DNA of 64,000 nt, taken from Crocinitomicaceae bacterium (lineage in GTDB: Bacteria > Bacteroidota > Bacteroidia > Flavobacteriales_G > Salibacteraceae). The first letter of the stretch is position 1. Each line of letters starts with the position of its first letter. Positions 13,911-63,653 of this stretch are shown one piece after another. The stretch is taken from NCBI GenBank assembly GCA_002713215.1, contig PAVO01000036.1, forward strand, positions 1 through 64,000, read 5' to 3'. Under the pieces are notes generated by a model. The model was not told the origin of the DNA and did no database searches. It worked only from the letters and a program-made list of their open reading frames with translations. Both the position numbers and the translations under genes were made by a program.

Positions 13911-13940
13911 CTGTTTTGTATATTAATTATTATATGTTAT

Positions 13941-14519
13941 TTATTTTTCAGGTGGTAAAAGTACAGCGTCAATTACATGCACCCAGCCATTACTTGCCTT
14001 AACTGAACCAAGAACTTTAGCCCCGTTAACATAGGTTGCTCCATCTTTTTCTTCAACCACAACTTTGTCTCCTGTAGCTTGGCCAATTCCCATAACACCA
14101 GCGATATGCTCAGCATCATAACTACCTGGTGCAGCATGGAATGTTAGAATGCGGGCTAGCGTCGCCTTATTCTCTGGTTTAACCAAATTTTCAACTGTTC
14201 CCTCCGGAAGTGCTGCAAACGCCGCATCAGTTGGGGCAAAAACAGTTATTGGACCATTGTTTGCCAATACATTTTCTATTTCAGCAGCTTGAACTGCAGC
14301 AACCAATGTTTTGTGATCCGGAGAGCCTATGGCGATTCCCAAAATATTTGGAGTTCCAGATTCATCTGTTGTTAAAAATGCTTGTCCAGCTTTTTCCTGG
14401 CTAGCTTCTTCCTGTGCGGGGGCTTGTTCAGCTGCCGCTGGCCCGCTTCCCTGATTTCCACATCCTGTGAAAAACAAAACTCCTAGGGCTAAGCCTAGAA
14501 TTGTAGATACCTTTTTCAT
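13941..14519 (-). CDS. FAS1 (fasciclin) domain lipoprotein
   Basis: The ATG at 14519 gives a 192-residue protein with a lipobox FFTGC (Cys20), an Ala/Glu-rich linker and one FAS1 domain (about 50-190, with FAPTDAAFAALPEGTV and an HVIDAVLLPP end). An in-frame ATG at 14549 would place ten extra residues before the signal peptide and is less likely. FAS1 proteins are adhesion or matrix proteins, yet this one is the first gene of the nos operon, 30 bp before the cytochrome. Its job in N2O respiration is unknown. Confidence 0.85.
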   Translation of the reverse strand: MKKVSTILGLALGVLFFTGCGNQGSGPAAAEQAPAQEEASQEKAGQAFLTTDESGTPNILGIAIGSPDHKTLVAAVQAAEIENVLANNGPITVFAPTDAAFAALPEGTVENLVKPENKATLARILTFHAAPGSYDAEHIAGVMGIGQATGDKVVVEEKDGATYVNGAKVLGSVKASNGWVHVIDAVLLPPEK

Positions 14520-47734: not shown

Positions 47735-48810
47735 GGGTAGCCATGATTTCAAGAGACACCCTTTTTAGTGGTCCGGGGGGCGATACCGTTCAAATGAAAC
47801 AAACAGCAAAGCACCTGGAAGCTATGGGTGTTTCGGTTGATATTTGCCTTTCTTCAAGTTCCGTTGAGTACAATAAATACGACCTGCTCCATTTTTTTAA
47901 TATTACCCGGGTGGCGGCAATTCTTCCTCATTTGAAGAAATCCAATACCCCTTACGTAATCTCACCCATATTCGTGGATTACAGCGAATATGATTTGTTG
48001 CATCGGAAAGACATAATCGGAAAAATAACCCGGGTTTTTGGACGAGACCGCTCTGAATATTTTAAAACGCTGGCCCGATGGATAAAAAATGGAGAATCGG
48101 TTAACAGCCTGCCCTACCTCTTTCAAGGCCAACGAAAAAGCATTGAAAATACATTGAATCGAGCTTCTGTTATTCTTCCTAACTCCAAGAGTGAATTTGA
48201 TCGTCTAGGCAAGGCTTTTAATTTCAGAGGGAAGTACGTAGTAGTCCCAAATGGAATCAACAAACCTGAAAGGACTGGAGATAATAGTAATAACAAAACA
48301 GGAGTACTTTGTGTGGGTAGAATTGAAAGTTACAAGAACCAGTTGAATATAATACGGGCACTCAAGAATTCTGATACCAGGTTAACCATTGTAGGTAAAC
48401 CGGCGCCAAATCACATTTCCTATTACGAACAATGCAAATTGGAAGCAGGAAACAACATCACTTTTTTGGATCATGCTCCTCATGACAAGCTGGTAGACCT
48501 ATATCGGAGCCATAAAGTTCATGTTTCGGCAAGTTGGTTTGAAACCACAGGTTTATGCAATCTGGAGGCCGCCCTCGAAGACTGTGTTTTAGTTATTACT
48601 GACAAAGGGGATACTAAAGATTACTTTGGAGACGATGTATATTATTGTGATCCGGATGGTGTTAATTCTATTCGGGAGCAAATTGAAAAAGCCCTGAAAT
48701 CGGCTCCAAGCTCAGCATTGAAAAATCGCATTCTTACTCAATATACCTGGGAAAATGCGGCTAAAAAAACGCTAGAGGGTTATAACATTGCGTTGAAGCA
48801 AAACAAATGA
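47731..48810 (+). CDS. glycosyltransferase family 4
   Basis: This 359-residue GT-B enzyme shows the GVLCVGRIESYKNQLNIIRAL start of the C-terminal domain, HVSASWFETTGLCNLEA with the GT4 Glu, and an N-terminal GPGGDTVQ loop. It overlaps its neighbours by 4 bp on each side. Confidence 0.85.
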   Translation: MRVAMISRDTLFSGPGGDTVQMKQTAKHLEAMGVSVDICLSSSSVEYNKYDLLHFFNITRVAAILPHLKKSNTPYVISPIFVDYSEYDLLHRKDIIGKITRVFGRDRSEYFKTLARWIKNGESVNSLPYLFQGQRKSIENTLNRASVILPNSKSEFDRLGKAFNFRGKYVVVPNGINKPERTGDNSNNKTGVLCVGRIESYKNQLNIIRALKNSDTRLTIVGKPAPNHISYYEQCKLEAGNNITFLDHAPHDKLVDLYRSHKVHVSASWFETTGLCNLEAALEDCVLVITDKGDTKDYFGDDVYYCDPDGVNSIREQIEKALKSAPSSALKNRILTQYTWENAAKKTLEGYNIALKQNK

Positions 48811-49913
48811 AAAAAAAGATTGCCATACTAGGGTCTCGGGGAATTCCAAACCACTATAGCGGGTTCGAACAGTTAGCTGAATACCTGGCACAGGGATTAG
48901 TAAAAATGGGTTATGAAGTCAGTGTGTACAACTCCCACGACCATCCCTATCAGGAAAAAACCTGGAACGGCGTAAATATCATTCATTGTCATGACCCGGA
49001 ATACAAGATGGGCACATTCGGGCAATTTATCTACGACCTCAATTGCATTAAAGACAGCAGAAAAAGGAATTTCGATCTAATCTTTCAGTTGGGGTATACC
49101 AGTAGCACCGTTTGGTTTTGGTACCTACCGAAGGGAAGCAAAATAGCCACCAACATGGATGGGCTTGAATGGAAACGAAGCAAGTATAGCAAGCCCGTTC
49201 AGCAGTTTTTAAAGGTGGCGGAATGGCTTGGTGTAATAGGGAGTGATCGACTTATTTCGGACAGTTTAGGTATTCAGGCTTATCTAAAAAAGAAATACAA
49301 AAAAGATTCTTCCTTTATTCCCTATGGCGCACACCTCTTTAGTGATCCAAACCCGGAAGTACTGAGCGAGTTTAATCTGAAGCCAGGCGAATACGATATG
49401 CTGGTAGCGCGCATGGAACCTGAGAACAATATAGAAATGATTATAAAAGGGTACCTGACATCAAAACGTTCCAGGAAACTAGTGGTTGTTGGAAACACAC
49501 AGAAAACTCCTCATGGTCGATACCTGAAAGAGCAATACCAAAATGAAAATGGAGTGATGTTTACGGAAGGTATTTTTGATATCGACAAGCTGAATAACAT
49601 CCGACACCATTGTCACTTATACTTTCATGGACATTCGGTTGGTGGTACTAACCCTTCCTTGCTTGAGGCTATGGCTTCATCAGCGCTTATGGCAGCACAC
49701 GACAATCCTTTTAATAAAGCTATTTTGGAAGGGGAAGCATACTATTTCTCAAATCCAGAGGACGTAACCACCGCAATAGAAACCAGCAACAAAGCTGAAA
49801 AAATGCAATGGATAACCGACAATAGGAAGAAAATAACAGATAAATACACCTGGGATGCTATTGTTAAGGGGTATGCTCAGGTCATAGAGGAGTTAACCAA
49901 TGGAAAAGCTTAA
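48807..49913 (+). CDS. DUF1972-type glycosyltransferase
   Basis: This 368-residue GT4-like enzyme starts IAILGSRGIPNHYSGFE, the mark of DUF1972 (rhamnosyltransferase-like) proteins; a second typical stretch is HGHSVGGTNPSLLEAM. It probably adds a sugar to the repeat unit. It overlaps the next gene by 14 bp. Confidence 0.87.
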   Translation: MKKKIAILGSRGIPNHYSGFEQLAEYLAQGLVKMGYEVSVYNSHDHPYQEKTWNGVNIIHCHDPEYKMGTFGQFIYDLNCIKDSRKRNFDLIFQLGYTSSTVWFWYLPKGSKIATNMDGLEWKRSKYSKPVQQFLKVAEWLGVIGSDRLISDSLGIQAYLKKKYKKDSSFIPYGAHLFSDPNPEVLSEFNLKPGEYDMLVARMEPENNIEMIIKGYLTSKRSRKLVVVGNTQKTPHGRYLKEQYQNENGVMFTEGIFDIDKLNNIRHHCHLYFHGHSVGGTNPSLLEAMASSALMAAHDNPFNKAILEGEAYYFSNPEDVTTAIETSNKAEKMQWITDNRKKITDKYTWDAIVKGYAQVIEELTNGKA

Positions 49914-51147
49914 AACGGCCTATTTCTTTTCAATAATTGCTGTTGCACTTACCTTCCCTTATTTTGCCCACTTAAACTCAGTACTCATATTTATTTGTTG
50001 CCTGCTTTCGGCAGTCTCAAATCCAATCAACGAAAAATGGGCTAACTTAAAATCAAACCCCTGGATTATATTTTTCATTATCTACTACTTGGTACAAGTT
50101 GTTGGCTATTTCAATTCCTCCAATGAACAGGAAGCTCTTTTCATTTTGGAAAAAAAAGGTGGAATGGCCTTACTCCCCATATTTCTGGCATCTGGGACAC
50201 AACTAAGCAAATCTCAAATTAAGACCATCTTACTCTCAGTTGTGGCTTCCGTATTATTGGGTGGCTTGGCAATGATTCTATTGTCCGGCTTCGACTATTT
50301 TGAAAACAAAGATTCTGCGGTTTTCTACTACCATCAATTATCTAACCAACTTGGGGCACATGCCATCTACTTCAGTGTTGTAGTTGCTACCAGTATTTTT
50401 TTATTGATGAAATTCAAATCGCTTGTTTTTAATGCCCACACAATTCTTTATTATGTTTTGCTCTCTTTTTTAGCCATTCTGCTTATCCTCCTTTCATCAA
50501 AAATGATTCTGATTATTTCACTATTTCTATTCCTAGCATTACAGTTGATACAATTCAAAAAAAGGGAGAAAAAGGCAATGCTTGTTCTGATTACGGTGAT
50601 TGGAGTTGTTTTTATGCTCTTTGGTGGAGGAATTAGCTCACGGTTTTCGGAGATCATTAATCAGGATCTGGAAGTTCTCGGTCAAGAAAAGTACAAGTAC
50701 GACACACCATTAAATGGGCTCACTCTTCGTATTACCTTCTGGAATATAGTTATTGAAACCCTTTCCCAGGAAAGTAATTCCATGGCGTTTGGAGTTGGTA
50801 CGGGTGATGCCCAGGAAACACTTAGAAAAGCTTATCAAAATAAGGGACTATACATTGGGAATCCTGAACTCAAAGATCGAGGATACCTGGATTATAATGT
50901 ACATAGCCAATATTTCGAGGAATTGTTGAAGAATGGAGTACTTGGTCTTATTGCCCTGCTAATCCTGATTAGCACCATCTTAGGTATTTCTAAAAAAGAC
51001 AGGTTTTCGTTTTCCATTCTCCTTATTATAAGCTGCTTTTTCTTAACTGAAAGCGGGCTGGAACGCCACGCTGGCAGCATCTTGTTTACCCTAATTTCTG
51101 TATTACTAATTCTTGATAGCAACCAACAAAAAAGGCTAGTAGGCTGA
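49900..51147 (+). CDS. O-antigen ligase-like membrane protein
   Basis: This 415-residue protein has about ten helices. The external part HSQYFEELLKNGVLGLIAL (about 330-348) matches the Wzy_C/WaaL motif with its key His. It could be a second polymerase or a ligase that transfers the glycan. It is convergent with, and overlaps by 12 bp, the glycosylphosphotransferase. Confidence 0.78.
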   Translation: MEKLKTAYFFSIIAVALTFPYFAHLNSVLIFICCLLSAVSNPINEKWANLKSNPWIIFFIIYYLVQVVGYFNSSNEQEALFILEKKGGMALLPIFLASGTQLSKSQIKTILLSVVASVLLGGLAMILLSGFDYFENKDSAVFYYHQLSNQLGAHAIYFSVVVATSIFLLMKFKSLVFNAHTILYYVLLSFLAILLILLSSKMILIISLFLFLALQLIQFKKREKKAMLVLITVIGVVFMLFGGGISSRFSEIINQDLEVLGQEKYKYDTPLNGLTLRITFWNIVIETLSQESNSMAFGVGTGDAQETLRKAYQNKGLYIGNPELKDRGYLDYNVHSQYFEELLKNGVLGLIALLILISTILGISKKDRFSFSILLIISCFFLTESGLERHAGSILFTLISVLLILDSNQQKRLVG

Positions 51148-52497
51148 TTCACTTCTCGATAAAAGGGCTGTTCTAATGGTTCGAAAAACTACCCGGACAT
51201 CCAATAGTAATGTCCAATTTTGGATATATACAAAATCTGTTTTTATTCGGATTGTCATGTCCTTCAATTTCTGAGTCTCGCCTCTATACCCGTAAGCTTG
51301 TGACAATCCCGTAATACCAGGCTTCACCCTAAACCGAGCGTTATAATCCGGGATACGAGATTCGAATTTCTCATCCAATAAAATAGGATGTGGTCGAGGT
51401 CCCACAACAGACATGTCTCCCATAAAAACATTAAAAAACTGGGGCAATTCGTCTAAACTGGTTTTACGAAGAAAGGCCCCAACCTTTGTTATTCTGGGAT
51501 CTGACCGGGTAGCCTGTTTGCTGTGAGCGACATCATTAGCCCTCATTGTTCGTAGCTTCAGACAGTTAAATTGTTTTTTATTTCTACCATTTCTGGTTTG
51601 CCTGAAAAACACTCCTCCCTTGCTCTCAAACACAATGCACAAACCGAGAATGGGCAACAGCCAAGACAATAAGAAAACAATAATAACGGTAGAGAATATA
51701 AGGTCAAATATTCTTTTTGCCATGCGATTTATCCAAATAATGAGTGGCCCATTCATAATTTCTTCATAAGAACTGGATGTGATTTTTCTAAAGTTGAAAA
51801 ACTGTATGTGCTTTACGGTATCAATAGGAATCAAAAAAATATTTGCTCCTGATAGTTTTGCAACCTTTTGAATGAAGTCGAAGGTTTCTTTCTTATTGGT
51901 TGGATATACATAAATCTCATTAATCTTATGGTCGTTAAGCACGGAAGTAAACTCTTCTACATCGTTTTTCTCTATAAATGGATGCCCCTCTTCAATGGCA
52001 CAACAAAACCGATAACCTCCATGAGTCTTTTTTCTTAGAGACCTCCTAAAATAAACGGCCTCTTTTGCATAAGCCAATATCATGTATTGCGATGTTCCCC
52101 AGCCCAGTTTTCGAATAAATCGTATGACGGAAACAAAGGCTGATTTCTCTATCATTACCAGTAAAAACAAAAAGAACATAAACTTCAGGTAACCTATACT
52201 AATACTGGCATTCCATCCATCATAAAATATAACTAATACCAACCAATAAATGATGGTGAACAACGCATAAAGCTTGACTATACGGTAATAGGTATGAATA
52301 AAACTTACGTAACGTTGATTGGAAGTTGGAAACACCAGGGCATTGGAAATTACCCAACAAAATACAATTATCGGGGTAGCTTCCACACTAAACGGATCTA
52401 CACCAATTACATAATTCAAAGAAAAGAATATGACCAGAATATCCAGCAGCGTGGCAATAACAAAGTAGTGCCAAAATTTAGGTAATCGTAGTGGCAT
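51136..52497 (-). CDS. polyprenyl glycosylphosphotransferase (WcaJ/WbaP-like)
   Basis: This 453-residue protein starts glycan synthesis by moving a sugar-1-phosphate to undecaprenyl phosphate. The N-terminal half has four or five helices and a CoA-binding-like middle. The C-terminal sugar transferase domain (from about 265) shows KRIFDLIFS, FNCLKLRTM, TSLDELPQFFNVFMGDMSVV and GPRPHP. Complete by motif. Confidence 0.92.
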   Translation of the reverse strand: MPLRLPKFWHYFVIATLLDILVIFFSLNYVIGVDPFSVEATPIIVFCWVISNALVFPTSNQRYVSFIHTYYRIVKLYALFTIIYWLVLVIFYDGWNASISIGYLKFMFFLFLLVMIEKSAFVSVIRFIRKLGWGTSQYMILAYAKEAVYFRRSLRKKTHGGYRFCCAIEEGHPFIEKNDVEEFTSVLNDHKINEIYVYPTNKKETFDFIQKVAKLSGANIFLIPIDTVKHIQFFNFRKITSSSYEEIMNGPLIIWINRMAKRIFDLIFSTVIIVFLLSWLLPILGLCIVFESKGGVFFRQTRNGRNKKQFNCLKLRTMRANDVAHSKQATRSDPRITKVGAFLRKTSLDELPQFFNVFMGDMSVVGPRPHPILLDEKFESRIPDYNARFRVKPGITGLSQAYGYRGETQKLKDMTIRIKTDFVYIQNWTLLLDVRVVFRTIRTALLSRSESAY

Positions 52498-52607: not shown

Positions 52608-53282
52608 TTAGATCGTTGCAATTCTAAAAATAAAGTTCTTTTCCAAGATAGTACTTCGCCGGTATACAATATCCATTGACAAGGAGTATAACTTAGCAAT
52701 CGAATAAACCTTTTCTAAATCGCAATCTTCTGATAATACCATATAAACGACTGTATCAACAGACTTTTCTGTCAATTGCTCAAACAACTTATGAAAGTAT
52801 TCGAATTCAACTCCGCAATACCAGGCTTGCTCTTCAATTGTAGCTGCACTTTTAGCATAATATGGCGGATTTATAATAACAATCTGATATTCATTGGGGA
52901 TAAGGTTTGTAAACAAATCGGATTGAACCGTTTTTACACTTACTCCATTGTTCAAAGCATTAATTCTGGTATTTTCAATCGCTTTGGGGTTTATATCGCT
53001 AGCCACCATTTCAGCACCCATTTTAGCTGCCCAAACAGAAATAGCACCCGTTCCGCAACCTAGCTCCAACATAGTTTTCCCACTTACTTCAATCGTTTTT
53101 AAAAAGTAAATCAGGGTTTTGGTGCTGAAGAATAACCCGGGGTGAAATATTCTAGGTTGTACGACTATTTTACAACCAAAAAAGTCAATATTCAAATCCT
53201 TAGAAGCATATCGGTTGTAGGACCACCGAAGCCAAGGGTCAACCACAAACTTAATTGATTTCCTTATTGCCTTTCTAAACAT
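52608..53282 (-). CDS. class I methyltransferase, HemK/PrmC or RlmG-like
   Basis: This 224-residue enzyme has motif I MLELGCGTGAISVWA and the NPPYY motif (IINPPYYAKSA) that marks N-methyltransferases of Gln, adenine or guanine. No target-recognition domain is apparent. It lies between the glycosylphosphotransferase and a radical SAM gene, so its substrate could be protein, RNA or a small molecule. It starts 10 bp after the radical SAM stop, suggesting co-transcription. Confidence 0.75.
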   Translation of the reverse strand: MFRKAIRKSIKFVVDPWLRWSYNRYASKDLNIDFFGCKIVVQPRIFHPGLFFSTKTLIYFLKTIEVSGKTMLELGCGTGAISVWAAKMGAEMVASDINPKAIENTRINALNNGVSVKTVQSDLFTNLIPNEYQIVIINPPYYAKSAATIEEQAWYCGVEFEYFHKLFEQLTEKSVDTVVYMVLSEDCDLEKVYSIAKLYSLSMDIVYRRSTILEKNFIFRIATI

Positions 53283-53291
53283 TATTCAGAA

Positions 53292-54803
53292 CTAAAATCC
53301 TTCTATTTCAGGTTGCCTGTATTTTAACCAAAATTTCTGTAGGGCCTTTATTTCATAAGGATATTTAAGCAGGTTATTCTTGTATCGAAACGAAGAAATC
53401 AATCCCATAGCCTTACGCTGAAACGGTGTAATTTTAGGATCGGTATAGGTTGGATATCGACCATTAACTACCGTTTCAAAGTTTCGAATTTTATCTACCA
53501 TTTTTGGTGTTAACCAAGGAGTTAAAGGGTTTTTTCGCAAATCAAAATTTTCCCAGGAAGGGTCAAGCCAGTCTTCCAGTTTTTCAGGAAACGAAAAACC
53601 TGCATTCTTAACTGCTTCAAACAACTCAGAGCCCTCAGTTGGCACCGGACTGTAGAGGTAAATAATTATTTCTGCATCTGGATTTATTCGCTTTACCTCT
53701 TTTATAAAAGCGATATCAGAATCAATTTGGCGCATAACCTGCTGGGGAGTATCCGCTGGCATTCCAAGCACAAACGAATACTCAGGAATAATATCAAACT
53801 TCCTCAACCTGGCGGCGAAATCAAGGATTTGTTGACCGGTCTGAGTACCTCCTTTATTCATTTGCTTCAACACCTCATCATTACCGGTTTCAGCTCCAAG
53901 AAATATCATCTTACAACCGGATTTTCGCATAAGTGCCAGGCTCTCATCGGAGTACTTATTAATCGTATCAATTCTTCCTTCGCCCCACCAATTCATACCT
54001 TCCTCCAGCATCAGTTTCGAAAACTCTACAACCCGTTTCTCAGAAGTGAAGAAATTATTGTCATGGAATTCAACTGAATCGGCTCCATATTCTTCTTTCA
54101 GGTATTTGACATCCCGATAGACCAAATCTGCTGATTTAGCCTTCCATCTCGCATTATAAATAGGTACAACCGCACAAAAGGAGCAAGAGAAAGGGCATCC
54201 CATACTCGAATGGTAAGCCATCGTTTTCCTACCAAGGTAAGTCCTTTTTAAATAGCCTGGAATGGAGTAAAATCGATGGAGTACATCATAAGGAAGTGAA
54301 GGCAACTGGTCTTGATTCAGCAATGCTTCTCTGGGTCCCTTAATTATTTTACTTGCATCTTTAAAAATTAGGTTTTTGATTTCATCAATGGGTTTATTTG
54401 CCCCTAGTGAATCCAACAAAGCAGGAAAAGCTACATCTCCCGGGCCATCAATTATATAATCTACAAAACCCGAATCGAGTGCACTCTGGTATTGATTCGA
54501 AGCGAAATACCCTCCCCAAATCACAACCATTTCGTTAAACCTTTCCTTAATTCGCTTTGAAAAGGGAATGGCTTGTTTAAGCTGAGGCCCAGGCATTACT
54601 GTTGAACAGAAATACCCAAATTCACCACTTGACAAATATTTTTCAATAACAGACCAGGAGTCATCTTCCCTATTCCCATCGATCAGCACAAATTGATATT
54701 TGTCGTGGATACTGGCAGCCACCTGAAGAATGGAATTTGGAATTCGATAACCGTAGGTGGCAGCCTTGGGGTTAAACAGTATAATCTTTTTACTTTTTGA
54801 CAT
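53292..54803 (-). CDS. B12-binding radical SAM protein 1
   Basis: The ATG at 54803 (503 residues) starts just before the cobalamin-binding-like domain (IILFNPKAATYGYRIPN...). A start at 54854 is also possible. The [4Fe-4S] motif is CPFSCSFC (CX3CX2C) and the SAM strand GAETGNDEVLKQMNKGG. The C-terminal region (about 400-503) is of BchE-like helical type. Members modify or methylate carbons of lipids, peptides or sugars; the substrate here is unknown. It is divergent from the SGNH gene. Confidence 0.85.
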   Translation of the reverse strand: MSKSKKIILFNPKAATYGYRIPNSILQVAASIHDKYQFVLIDGNREDDSWSVIEKYLSSGEFGYFCSTVMPGPQLKQAIPFSKRIKERFNEMVVIWGGYFASNQYQSALDSGFVDYIIDGPGDVAFPALLDSLGANKPIDEIKNLIFKDASKIIKGPREALLNQDQLPSLPYDVLHRFYSIPGYLKRTYLGRKTMAYHSSMGCPFSCSFCAVVPIYNARWKAKSADLVYRDVKYLKEEYGADSVEFHDNNFFTSEKRVVEFSKLMLEEGMNWWGEGRIDTINKYSDESLALMRKSGCKMIFLGAETGNDEVLKQMNKGGTQTGQQILDFAARLRKFDIIPEYSFVLGMPADTPQQVMRQIDSDIAFIKEVKRINPDAEIIIYLYSPVPTEGSELFEAVKNAGFSFPEKLEDWLDPSWENFDLRKNPLTPWLTPKMVDKIRNFETVVNGRYPTYTDPKITPFQRKAMGLISSFRYKNNLLKYPYEIKALQKFWLKYRQPEIEGF

Positions 54804-54867
54804 GGGTGATTTCCGCGAATCGAAAATAGTGGTAATCTTCTCACCATACAGCATTTCTTTATATCAT

Positions 54868-54875
54868 TAAGTTTG
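54868..54875 (+). promoter_or_regulatory. -7 promoter element of the SGNH-like gene
   Basis: TAAGTTTG matches TAnnTTTG and lies 7 bp before the ATG at 54883, so the transcript is expected to be leaderless or nearly so. Confidence 0.5.
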
Positions 54876-54882
54876 TTGACCA

Positions 54883-55947
54883 ATGCGCTCAATTTTCAGG
54901 AATTTTAAACCCGTTATTCTAATCAGTATTCCAACCACACTGGTTACACTTATACTGCTTGAATTGGTATTTCGATTCGTTATTCCAGCTGCCACATACC
55001 CAACATCTTTCTACGATAGCGAAACACAAATTTTAAAATACGATACCTCGTTGTCCTCAGGTTTAATTACCCTTGGCACAAATGCCAGTATTCGAACCCA
55101 GTGGAATATCAATGCCCAGGGATGGAACAATTCCTATGACTACATTCGAAGCGATAAACCATTGGTTGCCGTAATTGGTGATTCGTATGTCGAAGGATTT
55201 CAGGTAGATGTAAACCAACGTTTTTCTGAGCTTTTACAGCAATCGCTTTCTGGTCGGTTTGATGTTTTCTCCTTTGGCAGATCAGGTTCCCCACTTTCCC
55301 AATACCTGCATATGGCCCGGCATGTTCAGCAAGATTATCAACCAAAGGTTATGGTATTTACCATCATTTCAAATGACTTTTTGGAAAGCGTATCTGCCCA
55401 TAATAATCGTCAGCCTTATTACCTTAGGTTTAATGTTGAGGGTGAAAACGTAACCGATGACAATATTCAACCTTATACTATCTCCGGAACCAATTCCATC
55501 TGGAAGAAAAGTGCACTGGTTCGATACGTTTTTTATAACCTGAAATTGGGAAGGATTATACGATCGTACAAACATGAAAATAGAAAGCCCAAAACCATTA
55601 CAGGAATTGAAGACTTTGAAAAAGTAAAGCCTGAAATTCAATTGGCTATAGAATATTTTCTTGAGCGGGTTACAACTGAATTCAAGAATACTCGAATTCT
55701 TTTTTTACTGGATGGCCCAAGAGATTGTATGTATTCCAACAATCTGGACAACTGCACGGAAAGAAAACTTTTTAATCTCTTTAAGACTACCTGTAAGGCA
55801 TACAATGTAGAAATAATTGACCTGGAGCCACCGATGCGGTCAGGATTTGGCACCGATGGAACCAAGTATGAATTTAAGATTGACCATCACTGGAATGTGG
55901 AGGGGCATAAACTAGCTGCGAAAGAGCTAGAAAAACTACTAAAATAA
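54883..55947 (+). CDS. membrane-anchored SGNH-hydrolase-like protein 1
   Basis: This 354-residue protein has an N-terminal membrane helix (about 10-32). The SGNH catalytic Ser sits in VIGDSYVEG (block I) and the C-terminal DHHWNVEGHK supplies Asp/His (block V). Such proteins remove or add acetyl groups on exopolysaccharides. It is followed by a radical SAM gene 53 bp downstream. Confidence 0.75.
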   Translation: MRSIFRNFKPVILISIPTTLVTLILLELVFRFVIPAATYPTSFYDSETQILKYDTSLSSGLITLGTNASIRTQWNINAQGWNNSYDYIRSDKPLVAVIGDSYVEGFQVDVNQRFSELLQQSLSGRFDVFSFGRSGSPLSQYLHMARHVQQDYQPKVMVFTIISNDFLESVSAHNNRQPYYLRFNVEGENVTDDNIQPYTISGTNSIWKKSALVRYVFYNLKLGRIIRSYKHENRKPKTITGIEDFEKVKPEIQLAIEYFLERVTTEFKNTRILFLLDGPRDCMYSNNLDNCTERKLFNLFKTTCKAYNVEIIDLEPPMRSGFGTDGTKYEFKIDHHWNVEGHKLAAKELEKLLK

Positions 55948-56000
55948 AACGATGAAGGTTTGATTTTGGTAAATGACTTTGTGTATTTTTCCTCCTTGTA

Positions 56001-57419
56001 ATGCTTACCCGAAAGAAAATACTGTTATACAACCCCAACACGGTTTTCTATGACATGCCATTGGCGCTTTTAGCATTAGGGTCAAACCTGGATAATGACT
56101 CTTATGACGTGATTATAGTTGATGGTCGTATTGATCCAAACGCAAAACAGGCCATCAAAAACCACATTAAGGATGCCATTTGTTTTGGGGTAACTGTTCT
56201 TACCGGAAAGCCCATTAAAGATGCACTGGAAATGACTCAATGGGTAAAGTCCATTGATCCTGAACTAACTACCATTTGGGGAGGTTGGCACACGTCCTTG
56301 TTTCCTACGGAAACCTTGGAAGACGAAAAAACCATTGATATAACGGTACAAGGACAGGGGGAAGAAACGTTCCAGGAATTGGTAGCTGCTCTGGATAATA
56401 AAACATCCCTGGATAACATTAAAGGAATTTGTTTTCGAAAAGAGGATTCAATAGTTAAAAACCCCGGCCGGTTATTGAGGGACATGAATACCTTAAATCG
56501 AATCAATTACGACCTCATTGATGTTGAAGCCTATTTTACCAAAAAAGGAAAACGTCAGTTTGACTATATCAGTTCAACCGGTTGCTATTTTCGGTGTACG
56601 TTTTGTGCCGATCCTTTTGTGTTTGGCAGAAACTACTCGGCCGTTGACCCAGAGCGTATGGGCGAGGAATTTGAATATTACAAAAGCAAATACCAATTCG
56701 ACGAAATAAACTTTCAGGACGAAACCCTATTTACCTATCCGAAAAGGATTCGAAAAATGGCAAACGAGTTTTTGGATCGCAACCTGAATGTACTCTGGTC
56801 GGGAACAATGCGCGCTGATCAAGCCCATAGAATGACTGATGAAGATTTTGCGCTAGTGAAAAAATCAGGTTTAAAGCGAGTACTTATTGGAGTTGAGTCC
56901 GGTTCGCAGGAAATGATGGATTGGCTAAAAAAAGACATCAAACTTGAATACGTTTTTGAAGCGGCCGAACGTTGTGCCAAATTTGACGTTGGAGTTATCT
57001 TTCCTTTCATCGTTGGCTTTCCCAATGAGACCCAGAAAAGTTTAGACGCGACCATTTCGGTTGTAAAACAGCTCAATGCCATATCTCCCAAGTTTGAAAC
57101 TCCTATCTTCTATTTCAAACCTTATCCGGGTTCGCAAATCACCAGCGAAGTGGTTGCCAACGGGTATGAGCTTCCCAATTCTTTGAAAGAATGGGCTTCG
57201 TTCGACTACATTGGATCGGCAGGTCCATGGGTAAGCGACGAAATGTATAATTTCTTTGAGAATTTCAAATTCTTTTTGAAGGTTGGTTATGGAAAGCGCC
57301 GTCCATTGTTTTACCCGGTTCAACAATTCAGTAGGTGGAGAGTGGCTAATAATTCGTTTGGGTTTCCAATTGAAAGAAAAGTCTTTGAGTTGGTTAGGCC
57401 TGCTCAGAAGCTTTCGTAA
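56001..57419 (+). CDS. B12-binding radical SAM protein 2 (BchE-like)
   Basis: This 472-residue protein has an N-terminal cobalamin-binding-like domain (ILLYNPNTVFYDMPLALLALG) with WGGWH, and the radical SAM motif CYFRCTFC (CX3CX2C). SAM strand LIGVESGSQEMMDWL. It is distinct from protein 1 and runs on the opposite strand. Substrate unknown. Confidence 0.85.
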   Translation: MLTRKKILLYNPNTVFYDMPLALLALGSNLDNDSYDVIIVDGRIDPNAKQAIKNHIKDAICFGVTVLTGKPIKDALEMTQWVKSIDPELTTIWGGWHTSLFPTETLEDEKTIDITVQGQGEETFQELVAALDNKTSLDNIKGICFRKEDSIVKNPGRLLRDMNTLNRINYDLIDVEAYFTKKGKRQFDYISSTGCYFRCTFCADPFVFGRNYSAVDPERMGEEFEYYKSKYQFDEINFQDETLFTYPKRIRKMANEFLDRNLNVLWSGTMRADQAHRMTDEDFALVKKSGLKRVLIGVESGSQEMMDWLKKDIKLEYVFEAAERCAKFDVGVIFPFIVGFPNETQKSLDATISVVKQLNAISPKFETPIFYFKPYPGSQITSEVVANGYELPNSLKEWASFDYIGSAGPWVSDEMYNFFENFKFFLKVGYGKRRPLFYPVQQFSRWRVANNSFGFPIERKVFELVRPAQKLS

Positions 57420-57425
57420 TTAATC

Positions 57426-58985
57426 TTACAGAAAAACAACTATCGACTCACCTTTCTTTTCACCTGATGATTTTTCATTCCATGCAGGTCTAATTCTATG
57501 ATTAAAAATATTGGAATCCAGGCGTGGAGTAACTTCAGATGAGAATGCATATTGCATTCCTTCAAATACCAGGGCTTTTTGATCTTGGTATTGGGATAAC
57601 AATTTCAATGCAAGCGCTACTTTGGGCTTCAGTATTTTCGGTTCAGTAGTTGAGTCATTTAGAGAAGCAAACAAGTTTGTTGCTGTTCCCCACCCTATTC
57701 CAATCGAAATCTCATCCTCATCATAAATGTGATTGGAGTTTATACGAATCAATTCCTCAGGCAAATGTCCAAATTTGGTCGCAAGTACCCAGCCTGTTGG
57801 TCTGGCCAAAATCGCCTTGGTTGGTTCTTTTTTATATGCCACATATGCCGAAAAAATGCATGGAAAAATGAGAATAACTAACCCGTACTCTACCGCCTTC
57901 TTTAGGTTTACCCCAGGGAGTTGATTATTGGCAAGTCCAACAATGGAGATCGCCACAAACAAGGGAATGATATAGGTAAAATGCCTTGCATTGATATAAT
58001 GTGCAAAGTCTGGCCATTCCAGGTAGAAAGGACTTATGGCATACAAAGCAAAATACACGGCCAATACCAAGATCGGATAAATAAGCAACTTGCTTTTTCC
58101 TTTTATACTTCTTTGAATGAACAAGACGATTCCCAGCAATCCCATCCAATACCAGATAATTCTAACCCATTTAGTTGAAATCGGACCCAAATTTTCAAGA
58201 AGAGAGATTTGCGTGAGATGTTCGGTGTATACTTTAGTGATACGAGCATAGCTTTCTATCTCAAAGAAGTTGAAAGACTCACCGCGGATTGAACCTAAAC
58301 TAAATTTAGATAATCCAAATCCTGTGTCAAAACTGACCCTAATGCCAACATGAAAGAGAACCAAAACACCAAGGGGTAAGCCTACCCAAAGCATGTTCTT
58401 AAGTTTGGTTTTTGAATGGAGAAGAAAAACAATATAAATCGGTACAAAAATCAGATTGGTATAACTAAACCAAGCCGAAAGTCCAAGAAAGATACCGTCA
58501 GCAACAAATTCTTTGGAGCTTGAATGAACTCTATGAATCAGGTAAATAAACAAGAAAGGAAAAACGGATGAGATCGAATGTAATCCGAAACTTAGTCCAG
58601 CCCAAGGAAGAATTAAAGGAACTCCAACAATGGTCCAAAAACCAAAATACAACATGGCTTTTTTACCAAAAACACGATTTACTACCACAAGTTGAACATA
58701 CCTTGAAACCGTGTCTAACAAAAAAGCAACAATCACTAAACTCTTGAACTGAAACAAAGGCTTGAAAAGAAGCCCTAATAAAGAAACCAGAATGGAGCCG
58801 CCTTCGTGTGGGTAATGAATGATTTTTGCATAACTCCACAACTGGGAATTGATCAGGTCATTTAGAATAAGCTCGGAAGCAATCTGATCAGGTGCCAAAT
58901 TCCAATATTGAAATTTCAAACCAAAAAGGACTCGAACCAACGTTCCGAGCAAGACAATGGTTACGGCTATAATATTAAATCTCAT
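57426..58985 (-). CDS. polytopic membrane protein, GT-C glycosyltransferase-like
   Basis: This 519-residue protein has ten or more helices and a large C-terminal periplasmic part (about 410-519). An Asp/Glu-containing first loop and IIHYPHEGGSILVSL suggest a polyprenyl-phosphate-dependent GT-C. Weakly supported; could be another membrane enzyme of the locus. It converges on the radical SAM 2 gene with a 6-bp gap and follows the SPASM gene by 14 bp. Confidence 0.55.
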   Translation of the reverse strand: MRFNIIAVTIVLLGTLVRVLFGLKFQYWNLAPDQIASELILNDLINSQLWSYAKIIHYPHEGGSILVSLLGLLFKPLFQFKSLVIVAFLLDTVSRYVQLVVVNRVFGKKAMLYFGFWTIVGVPLILPWAGLSFGLHSISSVFPFLFIYLIHRVHSSSKEFVADGIFLGLSAWFSYTNLIFVPIYIVFLLHSKTKLKNMLWVGLPLGVLVLFHVGIRVSFDTGFGLSKFSLGSIRGESFNFFEIESYARITKVYTEHLTQISLLENLGPISTKWVRIIWYWMGLLGIVLFIQRSIKGKSKLLIYPILVLAVYFALYAISPFYLEWPDFAHYINARHFTYIIPLFVAISIVGLANNQLPGVNLKKAVEYGLVILIFPCIFSAYVAYKKEPTKAILARPTGWVLATKFGHLPEELIRINSNHIYDEDEISIGIGWGTATNLFASLNDSTTEPKILKPKVALALKLLSQYQDQKALVFEGMQYAFSSEVTPRLDSNIFNHRIRPAWNEKSSGEKKGESIVVFL

Positions 58986-58999
58986 GCTTTTCCAACATT

Positions 59000-60079
59000 T
59001 TAAAAAGCACTACAGCATCTTGAGCATCCTGGAAATAATCCTCCGGCCGACATTAAATTGGACCTAAACTTTGAAAAGGTTTCCGAGTTCCAAATTTCAG
59101 TCATATCGTTTTTATACAAATTACCCACAGATAAATTAAAACATCTTCCATGGGCTGGAATTACACTTCCGTCAGATTTAATCATCAAACTACTAAATAC
59201 AGCATGACAGTGCTTTCCAAGTAATTTATTGGTTTGAAAGTAAAACTCAACAAGCTTTTCTTTGGTTTCAATCTCTGGTGAAAAAGTAACCTTAAATGGG
59301 TATTCCGTTTTCTTAATTTCTTGTATTTCCTTCAAAAGTAGTTCGAGGTCCATCTTAGAGGGATCAACTTCTTCCAGGTTTGACGCCGTTGCCGGATAGA
59401 GATGTCCCCATTTTTCGTTATGCTTGTCTGCCATCAATTGATCCGCAAATTGAGTATGCATAAACGATACTTCGTTCAGATCTAAATTTTTGACGCTATC
59501 CAAAAATCCCTTCAAGTATCCAATATTCCACTCGGTAATCGCGAAAATGATATCAATCTTTGGCGCATTCTTATACTTCTTAATTTCCTGAATGCCTTCA
59601 ACTGCCTTCTGAAAAGATTTTTTATTTCCTCTTATCTCGTTGTGAATTTCCTGAGGCCCATCAATTGACACGTAGAGGTGATTTACCCCTGCCTCTACCA
59701 GCTGCTCGGCTTTCTGCCTAAGTGTAAGGGCATTGGTGGTTATTGTTGACTGAAGACCTTTCTCAGTTGCGTAACTTATAGACTCAATCAAATGTGGATA
59801 CACCAATGGCTCAGTAAATGCATAGGCCAGCTTACTCTTTGGAAAATTTTCGGACACCTGTTCAATAATGTCCTTAATAAGAGGTAAAGGCATATTTATA
59901 GGGTGTGTTCCAACCAAATTCTGAGCAAAATTGCTTTCCAGGTTTTGCGTACCAACATCACACATTTTGCAATGCAAATTGCATACATTATTTACACCCA
60001 ATACAATCCATTTCGGGCTTTGAAATACCTTACCCGGATACATTCTTGCATTTAAGACTCTTAATTTTTCACTAATCAT
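59000..60079 (-). CDS. radical SAM/SPASM-type enzyme
   Basis: This 359-residue protein has the cluster motif CNLHCKMC (CX3CX2C) and a C-terminal cysteine-rich end (CFNLSVGNLY...CSRCCSAF) that probably binds an auxiliary Fe-S cluster. SPASM-type proteins modify peptides or sugars. It overlaps the flippase by 8 bp, so it likely acts in the same pathway. No peptide precursor gene was seen nearby. Confidence 0.83.
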   Translation of the reverse strand: MISEKLRVLNARMYPGKVFQSPKWIVLGVNNVCNLHCKMCDVGTQNLESNFAQNLVGTHPINMPLPLIKDIIEQVSENFPKSKLAYAFTEPLVYPHLIESISYATEKGLQSTITTNALTLRQKAEQLVEAGVNHLYVSIDGPQEIHNEIRGNKKSFQKAVEGIQEIKKYKNAPKIDIIFAITEWNIGYLKGFLDSVKNLDLNEVSFMHTQFADQLMADKHNEKWGHLYPATASNLEEVDPSKMDLELLLKEIQEIKKTEYPFKVTFSPEIETKEKLVEFYFQTNKLLGKHCHAVFSSLMIKSDGSVIPAHGRCFNLSVGNLYKNDMTEIWNSETFSKFRSNLMSAGGLFPGCSRCCSAF

Positions 60080-61259
60080 TTATAAGCTGCAATTTACCTG
60101 ATTTATGAACCACCATGATGGCTAATATTATTCTTGAAATTATACCGCTAATTAATGCTCCAACTACCCCAATAATAGGGATCAAACCAATGGCCAATAC
60201 AATGTTTATAATAGCCGCAACTAAATTAAATTTTAACAAGGCTTGTTCTGAGTTGTGCTTTATGAGCACCTGACATTCGATTAAATAGGCATATAACGGG
60301 ATGAGGTACAGAAAAATAAGGGGTAAATAAATTAGTGATGGGGTGAATTTATATACATAAAGAAGGGCTAAGAATAAACCAATTGAAAACACAATGGTGG
60401 ATGCCAGACCCAATCTCACAAAAGGTTTTTTTAGGTTTTGTACTTCATTCGGCTTTAAGCGATAAATGTTCTTTTGAAAAGGCCCAAGAAGAATACCTGC
60501 AAACGTCTGTGCCATGATTAAGAACCCAATGAGGACATGATAAAAGCCTATTTCTGCTTCGCTTAAAAAATAATTTACAACATACAGTTCACCTTTGCTT
60601 TGAAACAAACCTGCTATGGCCAGCGCAAAAAAGGGCCAGGAAATTTTCAAATTATTAATTAGAGTTGTTGATCCAATACCTGAAAGGGTCAACTTCGGGA
60701 GCACCTTTGTCAATATCAATAGTTTCAGGGAAGCACCGGCGATTATGGAGAGTATTATGTTGTCAACGGATATTTCCTTAAAATAGAAAATCAACAAGGA
60801 AAGGGAGAGTAAAATGGAAAGGCTCTCACTTAAAATGGAAACGGAATATTTTCTTCGGTACTGAATTATGGGATCAATGGACCCAGCCACGACGCGCAGA
60901 AATACCAATGCATACAATTCCCACAAATAGGGTTGAAGAATTGGAATAAAGGAAACTAAGAAGGATATAAAAAGAAACAAAATCAGTCTGGAAATGACCA
61001 CCAACCACCATGACGCATTAATGTCTTTTGGCATCGTAGAAAACTGACGCATAAGCCAGGGTCTTTGTCCCCAACTAACCACAGAAAACATAAGTTCGGC
61101 TGCTATTAAAAATGTAACTATCGCACCCCAAATATCAACTCCTGATGTGCGGATCACCCAGAGTGAAACCAGGCTAATGTTTATGGAACGAAGAGCAAGA
61201 CTAACACCTTCCTGAGTAATCCATTTGCCTCGTTTAAGGTTTTTTTTGTCGACTTTCAT
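60072..61259 (-). CDS. Wzx-type polysaccharide flippase
   Basis: This 395-residue protein has about twelve helices and is of the MATE/oligosaccharide-flippase type (WGAIVTFLIAAELMFSVVSWGQRPWLMRQ). It would move the lipid-linked unit across the inner membrane. It overlaps the downstream and upstream genes by 8 and 4 bp. Confidence 0.8.
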   Translation of the reverse strand: MKVDKKNLKRGKWITQEGVSLALRSINISLVSLWVIRTSGVDIWGAIVTFLIAAELMFSVVSWGQRPWLMRQFSTMPKDINASWWLVVISRLILFLFISFLVSFIPILQPYLWELYALVFLRVVAGSIDPIIQYRRKYSVSILSESLSILLSLSLLIFYFKEISVDNIILSIIAGASLKLLILTKVLPKLTLSGIGSTTLINNLKISWPFFALAIAGLFQSKGELYVVNYFLSEAEIGFYHVLIGFLIMAQTFAGILLGPFQKNIYRLKPNEVQNLKKPFVRLGLASTIVFSIGLFLALLYVYKFTPSLIYLPLIFLYLIPLYAYLIECQVLIKHNSEQALLKFNLVAAIINIVLAIGLIPIIGVVGALISGIISRIILAIMVVHKSGKLQLIND

Positions 61260-62422
61260 GGCAGCAAATCAATGCTTACTATTTCGGTTTCTCTACTTCC
61301 AACGGCTGTTCTAACCGTACTAAATTCCAATAAAGTCTGAACCTCATTTCTGATATACAATCGCCCCATTTCCGGAAACTCTTCATGCAGTTGAGCTTTA
61401 TAGGACAATAATTTTTGTTTAGCCTGAACTTGAGAAACTCCCATTTCTTGGGCTAGCCTTTTTAGTGAAGGTTGATAATACCTTATATACAGCTTCTCGA
61501 GGTGCTCATGGGCCTTAGCATCAGTAAAGTCAATTTCGCCGTTCAACGAAGTTCTATATAATGTCAACGATTGCATTGCAGCCTTAACCGAAGAATTAAA
61601 GTCATCCGTTGTTAAGTACCCACTTACCTTAGGACTTTGCAAAAAAGAAGGTTGGATATTAGTTTCATGACACCACAAACATTTTGATGGCTTACCTCCA
61701 TTGGAAAGGATATTATTTGCTCCCGAAATTCTCCTTCCCTGGGAATCATATACCCCAAACCTGGGCTGACCATTGGGCATAATATCCATAACTTCAAATT
61801 CTTTGATGGAATGTGTACCCTGCTCAATAGACCCGGAAAGCTCACTTGCTATATAGGATTGATTGTGGCTACCTGCATTAACAACTGGTAGCTGAATAAT
61901 TCGATTTCCAAATGCCACCCCCGAGTTAATAACCGCCACAGAACTATCTAAATAAGACCTACCCTTTTTGTATAAATCAAATCGATCGGGTATACCCACA
62001 ATTTTGTAATAATGGTTGGTGGTATTGAAAGTAGCGGCCACCCACCTACCACCGTCTATCCCTTGCTTCAGCTCAAACTCACCTGATTCTTTGAATAAGG
62101 AATTCAACTTTGTAATCTGCTCTAACGCTATTTGGTTAAATCCCATTTGGGAAAAATCAACATGCAATTTATTATCCTCCCATCTTGTACCGTTCTCCCA
62201 TGAACCTGTTGAAAGTTCTGCACCTAAAAACGAAAAGCACCACCGCAAACCAACTTCAAAATCATTTTTGGTTTCCATGTCGTTCTGGTACCAAATAAGG
62301 GCAAGTTCTGAAGTTGAATCTTCCACTTCACTTACGTAAAGGGTTTCTTTCTTACAAGCTTCGAACAAAATCGTTATAAGCACAAAAAGTGTCGTTATCT
62401 GTAGGAAAGATCGCTTAGCCAT
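61256..62422 (-). CDS. lipoprotein with one CxxCH motif, unknown function
   Basis: This 388-residue protein has a lipobox LFEAC (Cys23). A CLWCHETN motif (about 243-250) in the sequence GGKPSKCLWCHETNIQPSF fits covalent haem attachment, but no Met/His axial partner can be assigned. The rest shows no recognised domain. It sits between a flippase and a GT87-like gene with 4- and 8-bp overlaps. It may be a haem protein or only resemble one. Confidence 0.6.
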   Translation of the reverse strand: MAKRSFLQITTLFVLITILFEACKKETLYVSEVEDSTSELALIWYQNDMETKNDFEVGLRWCFSFLGAELSTGSWENGTRWEDNKLHVDFSQMGFNQIALEQITKLNSLFKESGEFELKQGIDGGRWVAATFNTTNHYYKIVGIPDRFDLYKKGRSYLDSSVAVINSGVAFGNRIIQLPVVNAGSHNQSYIASELSGSIEQGTHSIKEFEVMDIMPNGQPRFGVYDSQGRRISGANNILSNGGKPSKCLWCHETNIQPSFLQSPKVSGYLTTDDFNSSVKAAMQSLTLYRTSLNGEIDFTDAKAHEHLEKLYIRYYQPSLKRLAQEMGVSQVQAKQKLLSYKAQLHEEFPEMGRLYIRNEVQTLLEFSTVRTAVGSRETEIVSIDLLP

Positions 62423-63653
62423 TACTTTTACTAGTCCTGTAGAACAACAAAGAAAAGGTTAAAAACAAACCGATTAAGCCGTACAACCTTGGAAAATGAA
62501 CAAGTGTATTAATTACTTTAGAACCGGGTATAGTCGGAATATGGTGAGGCAAAAGGTTAAAAGTTAACACTGCAAGTATCGCCATAGCGAGCAGTAAATT
62601 CCCTTCACCAAAACGAATTCGAATCCATAATAGCAGGATTGAAACGGGTGGAATTAAAAATAAAAAATGATAGGTTGCAGTTACTGGAAGCAAGGCCGAA
62701 AGCCCTAAAATCACAATGGACGGTAAAACAAAGGAATGCTCATGATCACTTTTTTTTCTGGACCACAAAACGGCAATTATGGCCAATATCCCAAGAACAA
62801 AGCCTGCTTTAAAAATGGGTTTTAAACCAGGCAAATTAATAACTGGTGCAGCATTAAAATTACTATCGGCAACAAAAAGATTAGCTAAAAGCGCATCCAT
62901 TGATTGATAATTAAATGAGTGCTGCCCCTGGCCCTGAATATTGCCTTGTAGATGTTCTGACAAATGTTGGAAGAAATCCTGGTAAATGCCTACCCCTTGA
63001 AAAATAACCGGCGAAACCCAGAGTAACAATCCAACAAGGAAGGCCATCAGGCTGGTCTTTATCATTGTTTTTCTGTTGCCGTAAAGCAGATAGACTAGTG
63101 GAAAATATTTTAAAGCCACAGCCAATCCAATTAATGCCCCAGCCCCCTTCCACCTGCCTTCTTTAAGAATGAGCATAGCGACTAACAACATGGTGGTGAA
63201 CATCAGGTAGGTTTGCCCAAGTCTGAAATTGGATGCCAGCGGAATGCAAAACAGACTAGTGAGTAATAGGGTATTTAGCCAGGAAAACTGAATCAATCGT
63301 TTCAACAGAACCACCAACAAGGCTAAAAACAAGACATTTAGCATCATCCAAATGCGTTTCGCAGTTAATTCCGTGAACCCACTTAATGGAAGCATTAAGT
63401 AGGATGTAACTGGTGGAAAAGGAGTAAACTTAGCCCCATGTTCTACACCGTTTTCAATTGCTTTTTGATTAAACTCTGAATCATTGTAAAACGAAAAGTC
63501 AGTGATTGAACGGGATATCAAAACAGAAGACGCATAATAATTGGAAAAGTCTGACCTTCCTTCCTGCCATCCGGGAATGATCCCTTTAATCGTGATAAAT
63601 GTGAAACACAATAGAAGCCACAATAACAAGAAGACGTATTTAACTTTATACAT
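62415..63653 (-). CDS. GT87-like membrane glycosyltransferase
   Basis: This 412-residue protein has about ten helices and the DUF2029/GT87 pattern (DFSNYYASSVLI, FTPFPPVTSYLMLPLSGF, AVALKYFPLVYLLYG), as in polyprenol-mannose-dependent mannosyltransferases. It starts a minus-strand run of five genes. A -7 element TATCTTTG lies at 63673-63680, 19 bp upstream. Confidence 0.8.
   Translation of the reverse strand: MYKVKYVFLLLWLLLCFTFITIKGIIPGWQEGRSDFSNYYASSVLISRSITDFSFYNDSEFNQKAIENGVEHGAKFTPFPPVTSYLMLPLSGFTELTAKRIWMMLNVLFLALLVVLLKRLIQFSWLNTLLLTSLFCIPLASNFRLGQTYLMFTTMLLVAMLILKEGRWKGAGALIGLAVALKYFPLVYLLYGNRKTMIKTSLMAFLVGLLLWVSPVIFQGVGIYQDFFQHLSEHLQGNIQGQGQHSFNYQSMDALLANLFVADSNFNAAPVINLPGLKPIFKAGFVLGILAIIAVLWSRKKSDHEHSFVLPSIVILGLSALLPVTATYHFLFLIPPVSILLLWIRIRFGEGNLLLAMAILAVLTFNLLPHHIPTIPGSKVINTLVHFPRLYGLIGLFLTFSLLFYRTSKSNG

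Follow-up and report, generated by a model that had tools for sequence, protein, structure and literature searches.

A recurrent radical SAM gene module of Bacteroidota and its possible part in making a lipid-linked molecule

Why would a bacterial polysaccharide locus be accompanied by a run of radical S-adenosylmethionine (SAM) enzymes? This question is raised by contig PAVO01000036.1 of a Crocinitomicaceae bacterium (assembly GCA_002713215.1), of which positions 1-64000, here called the window, were analyzed; the genome comprises 5.03 Mb in 56 contigs and is 98.9% complete. The initial annotation had recognized three radical SAM enzymes in the window, and these genes (rSAM_A, rSAM_B and rSAM_C; Table 1) are where it had placed them, but the set was incomplete: six radical SAM genes lie within 16.6 kb, three of them (rSAM_D, rSAM_E and rSAM_F) beyond the window end at 64000. 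The whole genome contains 21 matches to PF04055, and six of these sit on this contig at 53.3-69.9 kb. Their companions are two methyltransferases (MT1 and MT2), a nucleotidyltransferase (NTase), a flippase-like protein, a haem-motif lipoprotein (Heme388) and glycosyltransferases.

As our best explanation, a tentative one with slightly less than even confidence, we suggest that these genes belong to a module, conserved in Bacteroidota, for the assembly and export of a lipid-linked molecule whose sugar or headgroup is remodelled by radical chemistry. The module itself is described by what was observed, i.e. gene content, co-occurrence, pairing of genes, one gene fusion and exchange of partners.

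Distribution of the core in Bacteroidota

In a phylum sample of 296 genomes, each at least 90% complete, matches were counted at E≤1e-120 for rSAM_A, E≤1e-105 for rSAM_F and E≤1e-65 for NTase. rSAM_F was present in 24 of the 296 genomes and a strong NTase match, with a profile built partly from these same 296 genomes, in exactly the same 24; rSAM_A was found in 14, all of which also contain rSAM_F. Weak NTase matches (1e-21 to 1e-28) occurred in three further genomes, and in G107 the rSAM_F match is nearer to rSAM_E. NTase and rSAM_F are on the same contig and at most 4.5 kb apart in 24/24 genomes, and within about 600 nucleotides (nt) in 20; in G323 the NTase piece adjoining rSAM_F is a fragment. 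Similarly, rSAM_A and rSAM_F lie no more than 20 kb apart in 13 of 14 genomes, and the exception is again G323, in which NTase pieces are found on both contigs, the pattern expected from a contig break.

Within the GTDB family of the source organism, rSAM_B finds matches at E≤1e-30 in 16 of 35 genomes; a close rSAM_B is present in seven of these, the source genome included, and the rest match mostly via rSAM_A. The stretches around these hits hold NTase-rSAM_F-MT2-rSAM_E, rSAM_A-MT1, Heme388 and the flippase in varying combinations. In three genomes (G001, G002 and G003) the core occupies stretches of 16-20 kb that lack WcaJ and Wzz and contain genes that we take to be ileS, lspA and ruvB, and rSAM_B is far from the core in G001 and G009. 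Because the core is present without WcaJ nearby, we regard it as a portable module rather than as a set that decorates a single polysaccharide.

When named genomes were scanned with the rSAM_A alignment, 553 relatives were obtained, of which the best 80, a set biased to close ones, are 61-70% identical and by title nearly all from Bacteroidota, including Flavobacterium, Aquimarina, Winogradskyella, Kordia, Crocinitomix, Mucilaginibacter, Puia, Pinibacter, Spirosoma, Roseivirga, Saprospiraceae and others. The outliers among the 80 are one Ignavibacterium metagenome-assembled genome (MAG) and Rickettsiales and Bifidobacterium MAGs that are perhaps misnamed. Counted as best BLAST hits at E≤1e-6, and with some of the loci short, these 80 loci contain MT1 (57), rSAM_F (48), MT2 (46), NTase (34), rSAM_E (27), a Wzx-like flippase (23), Heme388 (22), WcaJ (11), rSAM_B (6) and rSAM_D (3); the rSAM_C label in Mucilaginibacter covers relatives at the 23-27% level. 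As a control, 20 stretches of 20 kb were placed at arbitrary round-number positions in the genomes of seven relatives. Since their 331 open reading frames (ORFs) include none of the 22 clustered families except ABC, in 2/20 stretches, the clustering is not due to chance.

In six loci from Flavobacterium or, by title, its near kin (L087, L092, L096, L100, L102 and L103) the core adjoins ribosomal genes, presumably rplM, rpsI, rpsB and tsf; this neighbourhood is perhaps a fixed chromosomal place of the core in these loci.

Pairing and exchange of partners

Partner genes were compared in 83 long loci, each with at least 13 ORFs of at least 120 amino acids (aa). Split windows were merged per genome, the source locus was included and the units of G001 and G009 include their distant rSAM_B; the divergent rSAM_A of L138-L141 clustered apart and fall outside the set. 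Most loci extend no further than 10 kb from rSAM_A in either direction. In 81/83 loci either MT1 (62) or a second type of methyltransferase, MT4 (20), is near rSAM_A; both are present in L136 and neither in L094 and L129. The median gap between rSAM_A and MT1 is 1 nt (n=71). An amidohydrolase is encoded in 20 loci, 19 times together with MT4 and never with MT1. In L153, rSAM_F and MT2 are fused in one ORF of 727 aa. The strict link between NTase and rSAM_F, this fusion and the pairing of radical SAM enzymes with methyltransferases point to a single pathway whose steps are paired.

The export genes are exchanged as well. A Wzx-like flippase was found in 28 loci and a full-length ABC flippase (members of the ABC family of at least 480 aa) in 23, never together, so that 51 of the 83 loci have one or the other; a glycosyltransferase of the clustered families is present in 69 and GT87 in 26. 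Thus, a radical SAM-rich unit beside genes for export and glycosylation, as the initial annotation had it, recurs. A WcaJ-family gene, in contrast, was found in no more than 14 loci. Together with the WcaJ- and Wzz-free core of G001-G003, this leaves unsupported the idea that the radical SAM set belongs to a WcaJ-type polysaccharide locus, of which the module is not a fixed part. rSAM_B is present in 13 loci. Two or three radical SAM genes per locus are typical (66/83), the maximum being six in the source locus and in the G009 unit with its distant rSAM_B. In a tree of 99 rSAM_A proteins, made by a quick method with SH-aLRT support only, the partner type changes at least three times and the flippase type six times.

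Several further neighbours were noted. A cytidine-deaminase-fold protein (PF00383) adjoins MT2 of the core triad in two loci (L150:8237-8788 and L152:11123-11701), and a deaminase role, in view of this protein and of the amidohydrolase in other loci, is a lead. UbiA and FAD-binding proteins lie beside rSAM_A in L046:14103-17488, with similar ORFs in L043; together with SDR- and HAD-like ORFs we take them to resemble a polyprenyl-phosphate-arabinose set. A family that we call NodU-like carbamoyltransferases after a single member, whose match is below cut-off, occurs in 12 of the long loci (e.g. L047:2193-3968, L053:12334-14061 and L043:2106-3854). Just past the NTase end of L010, a protein with an SprB repeat and a Por secretion tail is encoded at 12284-14452 on the minus strand.

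The locus and its proteins

All six radical SAM proteins carry CxxxCxxC and exceed the PF04055 cut-off, and DxHxxG is found in none of the six. The B12-binding domain (cut-off 32.1 bits) is above threshold in rSAM_B and rSAM_E only. Accordingly, of the two proteins that the initial annotation had called cobalamin-binding, only rSAM_B passes the domain cut-off; rSAM_A is below it, but keeps the GG...GPGD loop. rSAM_C has no B12-domain match in Pfam; it is the SPASM-type protein that had been predicted, and its C291, C352 and C355 are conserved in at least 95% of 44 rows. Other PF02310 proteins are encoded elsewhere in this genome. Several orthologues of rSAM_A begin near M18, for which reason its true start may be at about 54803. 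Overall, dependence of these enzymes on cobalamin is putative.

Among the NCBIfam matches listed, in tables of the best 25 rows, no radical SAM protein exceeded the cut-off of any model; the best models were Sden_1168, HpnJ and PhpK for rSAM_A, BchE for rSAM_B and rSAM_F, HpnJ for rSAM_D, PhpK for rSAM_E and a tungsten-cofactor maturase for rSAM_C. By sequence, the best match in the PDB for rSAM_A is AprD4 of apramycin synthesis (6fd2, E 1.1e-11), which is also the second best for rSAM_F (2e-16).

MT1 and MT2 score below the cut-offs of all NCBIfam models listed for them. In MT1, N138, P139 and P140 are invariant (19 rows aligned out of 68), and MT2 and MT4 both have UbiE-type matches among others. 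The predicted structure of the NTase (pLDDT 92.9) combines a winged helix with a pol-beta nucleotidyltransferase domain, and the residues characteristic of the latter, G116 in the GS motif, D128 and D130, are invariant in 42 rows. Its fold is nearest to ANT(4')/KNTase aminoglycoside nucleotidyltransferases (Z 6.5-6.7 over 108-115 residues, root-mean-square deviation 3.0-3.4), with MNT antitoxins at Z about 4-5; an alignment of the family against PDB sequences gave two chance-level rows only. In Heme388, C248, W250, C251 and H252 are invariant in 25 aligned rows and we read the N-terminus as lipobox-like; its model matched no PDB fold at E≤1e-3 and a PDB sequence search with the alignment returned no rows. 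The flippase of the initial annotation has no match in Pfam or NCBIfam. A profile alignment, however, connects its family with three flippase-like proteins (hhalign probability 89, E 2.3e-6), two of which exceed the Polysacc_synt cut-off and one of which is without a Pfam match.

The genes are tightly packed (Table 1): 98.8% of 52608-70814 is coding, the widest gaps being 100, 53 and 28 nt, and within NTase-rSAM_F-MT2-rSAM_E-rSAM_D and GT87-Heme388-Wzx-rSAM_C neighbouring genes overlap by 4-8 nt or are 3 nt apart. The most conserved part, NTase-rSAM_F-MT2, is located past the window end. The names Wzx, GT-C, Heme388, ABC flippase, IleS, LspA and RuvB are our own readings.

Table 1. Genes of the polysaccharide operon and of the radical SAM locus. 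Contig and window numbering are identical; cut-offs and scores are in bits.
Feature	Position	Strand	Evidence
Wzz-like chain-length protein, first gene of polysaccharide operon	44766..45671	+	PF02706 33.4 vs cut-off 25.5
GT2, Wzy-like, GT4, GT4/DUF1972, second Wzy-like ORF	45697..51147	+	genes close together or overlapping, with spacings from 25 to -14 nt
WcaJ-like initiating glycosylphosphotransferase	51136..52497	-	PF02397 202.8; TIGR03025 316.8 vs 295.55
MT1, HemK/PrmC-like methyltransferase with NPPY motif	52608..53282	-	PF05175 60; 9 nt from rSAM_A
rSAM_A, B12-domain-type radical SAM	53292..54854	-	PF04055 58.5 vs 29.5
SGNH1, AlgX-like match and a single membrane segment at the N-terminus	54883..55947	+	PF13472 42.4 vs 32.9; PF16822 28.3 vs 26.5
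rSAM_B, radical SAM and B12-binding domain	56001..57419	+	PF04055 67.7 vs 29.5; B12 42.9 vs 32.1
Polytopic membrane protein, ~8 membrane segments	57426..58985	-	no Pfam or NCBIfam match
rSAM_C, radical SAM/SPASM protein	59000..60079	-	PF04055 76.3 vs 29.5; SPASM PF13186 40.7 vs 21.5
Wzx-like flippase (distant), ~10 membrane segments	60072..61259	-	profile-profile alignment
Heme388, lipoprotein-like 388-aa protein, CxWCH haem motif	61256..62422	-	motif invariant in aligned rows
GT87 (GT-C type) glycosyltransferase	62415..63653	-	PF09594 87.2 vs 25
SGNH2, ends at 64845 beyond window	63754..	+	PF13472 50.7
rSAM_D	64857-66254	-	best model HpnJ far below cut-off; no B12 match
rSAM_E	66258-67631	-	B12 55.4, above cut-off 32.1
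MT2, UbiE-like methyltransferase	67628-68422	-	
rSAM_F	68419-69879	-	B12 26.6, below cut-off 32.1
NTase, nucleotidyltransferase	69876-70814	-	PF01909 21.3 vs 21

Two other assignments of the initial annotation, the SGNH protein between the radical SAM genes and the initiating transferase, hold as well. The WcaJ-like protein is above the cut-off of TIGR03025 and below that of TIGR03023, and its gene follows rSAM_A-MT1 on the same strand, 110 nt from MT1. The parts of a Wzx/Wzy locus in the window are unequally clear: WcaJ is evident, the flippase is recognized only through profile comparison, the first Wzy-like ORF is sub-threshold for Wzy_C (25.6 vs 31.7 bits) and the second is named from its membrane pattern alone. 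The polytopic membrane protein at 57426..58985 is perhaps a GT-C glycosyltransferase.

Directly before the Wzz gene, an Asparaginase_2 protein with a signal-like N-terminus, which we read as of the glycosylasparaginase type, is encoded at 43668-44681 (-), and the same neighbour of Wzz is found in G008 (L042:449-1480). A match to the nitrous oxide reductase propeller is present at 11430-13400 (-) of the window; the host may respire nitrous oxide at low oxygen, a condition that would favor radical SAM enzymes in view of their sensitivity to oxygen.

Two ideas suggested by individual matches are not favored. Phosphonate chemistry, to which PhpK as the best model for rSAM_E points, found no counterpart in this genome, in which the sole match of the phosphoenolpyruvate (PEP) mutase type is below cut-off (22.5 vs 31.5 bits). 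A PADLOC scan of 10 locus proteins, i.e. without rSAM_B and rSAM_D, gave domain-level matches to defence systems only (e.g. rSAM_C to pVip with 51 bits and MT1 to mad2 with 65 bits).

A proposed pathway and its alternatives

AprD4, which has the B12-type fold without a requirement for cobalamin and dehydrates an aminoglycoside, is the solved structure to which rSAM_A is most alike by sequence; the NCBIfam AprD4 family (NF033070), however, scores at best 97.5 bits, for rSAM_D, against a cut-off of 500. The B12-type proteins also share their domain order with BchE, PhpK, BzaD and the ladderane-type enzymes, which we take to form class B of the radical SAM enzymes. The scores are far below the cut-offs: rSAM_E reaches 163.5 and 141.4 bits for PhpK and rSAM_ladder_B12 (cut-offs 600 and 360), rSAM_F 154.1, the best of the locus, for BchE (TIGR02026, 481.35) and rSAM_B 122.5 for BzaD (450). 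The NTase resembles ANT(4')/kanamycin nucleotidyltransferase and MNT antitoxins in its domain fold and in D128 and D130, and differs from them in its N-terminal winged-helix-like part (covered over 13-74 by rows such as 2pex) and its C-terminal part. A precedent for radical chemistry on a carrier-bound sugar comes from hopanoid synthesis: the radical SAM enzyme HpnJ converts a lipid-linked sugar after a glycosyltransferase and a deacetylase have acted (HpnI-HpnK-HpnJ; PMC12583986), turning lipid-linked glucosamine into the bacteriohopanetetrol (BHT) cyclitol ether. The alignment between rSAM_D and HpnJ spans positions 46-465 of 472. In contrast to the HpnI-HpnK-HpnJ system, no hopene cyclase was found here, there are six radical SAM genes accompanied by an NTase and a flippase, and the best HpnJ score (TIGR03471), that of rSAM_D, is 155.6 bits with a cut-off of 577.6.

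Combining these comparisons with the recurrent gene content, we suggest the following scheme: (i) at the cytoplasmic face a precursor would be modified by NTase, rSAM_F and MT2, which are the most widely retained members, (ii) rSAM_A and its partner methyltransferase (MT1, or MT4 with the amidohydrolase) would likewise act on it in the cytoplasm, (iii) rSAM_E, rSAM_C, rSAM_D and rSAM_B would add optional steps, (iv) the product would be flipped by the Wzx-like or ABC flippase and (v) GT-C glycosyltransferases and SGNH proteins would finish it outside, by periplasmic glycosylation. By analogy with HpnJ, the likeliest reactions would be methylation of a sugar at carbon, its dehydration or a rearrangement of its ring. 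Remodelling of a sugar or headgroup is favored because of the HpnJ precedent, the AprD4 match of rSAM_A and the NTase fold, and the interchangeable flippases together with frequent GT-C, GT4 and GT9 genes suggest that a lipid-linked product crosses the membrane; the substrate, the reactions, their order, the use of cobalamin and the surface destination are our inferences.

Several observations weigh against this scheme. Because the enzyme matches are far under the family cut-offs, the reaction types are analogies. The B12 domain is sub-threshold in rSAM_A (21.8 bits) and rSAM_F and unmatched in rSAM_D. The fold of the NTase also scores with OhrR (Z 5.6) and LinB (Z 5.2), values of Z <8 may reflect a common arrangement only, and the NTase model has no Foldseek match at E≤1e-3. 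The test of independent pairs for MT4 and the amidohydrolase had three pairs only, so that significance was unreachable. Neither kind of flippase is present in 32 of the 83 long loci; in 10 of the 83 flippase, WcaJ and clustered glycosyltransferase are all missing; and five of 10 NTase-rSAM_F loci from genomes lacking rSAM_A (L151, L153, L154, L155 and L156) have no cluster-type glycosyltransferase or full-length flippase within 20 kb, L151 and L154 having short ABC ATPases only (251 and 373 aa). The product of the core therefore need not be a glycan.

It is indeed conceivable, if rather unlikely, that the product is a small lipophilic molecule or cofactor, exported by a transporter or needing none, and that the polysaccharide genes are mere neighbours. 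The loci just named, in which NTase-rSAM_F-MT2 stands alone or the long locus is without glycan and export genes, fit this reading, as do the UbiE-type matches of MT2 and MT4 and the position of the core away from WcaJ and Wzz in G001-G003. On the other hand, 73 of the 83 long loci hold at least one of flippase, WcaJ and clustered glycosyltransferase, and the presence of one of two unrelated flippase kinds in 51 loci, never of both, and the occurrence of GT87 also speak against it. The version of the initial annotation, in which the radical SAM enzymes decorate the polysaccharide made by the adjoining Wzz, Wzy and WcaJ proteins, appears improbable. WcaJ is close to MT1 on the same strand, and the core has WcaJ-family genes nearby in loci of Puia and Crocinitomix and GT4a and GT4b/DUF1972 in those of Mucilaginibacter; however, WcaJ is infrequent in the long loci and the core occurs elsewhere without it. 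Moreover, repeat-unit genes usually vary by strain, unlike the 61-70% identical rSAM_A proteins among the best 80 of 553 relatives.

SPASM and B12-type radical SAM proteins are common as maturases of ribosomally synthesized and post-translationally modified peptides (RiPPs), and far-below-cut-off matches to the ApyD and rSAM_ocin_1 models would accord with modification of a small precursor peptide. A search that covered the gaps of the locus and its flanks found no ORF of at least 20 aa lying mostly within a gap of 52608-70814, and ORFs of 37, 28 and 24 aa in gaps flanking the core outside these limits; called genes and the rest of the genome were outside its scope, and we consider RiPP maturation very unlikely. 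Synthesis of hopanoids or tetrapyrroles is the least probable explanation and hardly credible: the top NCBIfam models for the five B12-type genes include HpnJ and BchE, but the best scores for both fall far short, as given above, and no radical SAM protein exceeds the NCBIfam cut-off for HpnR. Nor does the nearly complete source genome contain a match to hopene cyclase (TIGR01507); in the phylum sample the cyclase was above cut-off in 0/296 genomes and below it in two without rSAM_A or rSAM_F; the control for the cyclase is weak, with matches in only 2/14 named control genomes and none above cut-off. Overall, the enzymes appear unlike those of hopanoid or tetrapyrrole synthesis.

Returning to the module for a lipid-linked molecule, a more specific version of it is possible, though we hold it with limited confidence: the strictly linked triad of NTase, B12-type radical SAM enzyme and methyltransferase would make a new activated, carbon-remodelled sugar or headgroup in an undescribed phylum-wide pathway. 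Up to five more radical SAM steps would extend it, and interchangeable flippases would export the product, a surface lipid or glycan so far unreported from Bacteroidota. In the open-access literature we found no paper describing this system. The enzyme superfamilies and the logic of export are known and, as far as could be tested, it is their combination that is apparently undescribed. The locus supplies a set of radical SAM families without assigned function, and many Bacteroidota lineages, cultured type strains among them, share the core, so that Crocinitomix catalasitica, Flavobacterium terrae (DSM 18829), Mucilaginibacter and Kordia offer culturable carriers in which to find the molecule. 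Of the cultured strains among the best 80 relatives, C. catalasitica ATCC 23190 (L085) comes closest to the source locus in its genes. If our suggestion is correct, radical chemistry would shape an unrecognized envelope molecule in a major bacterial phylum.

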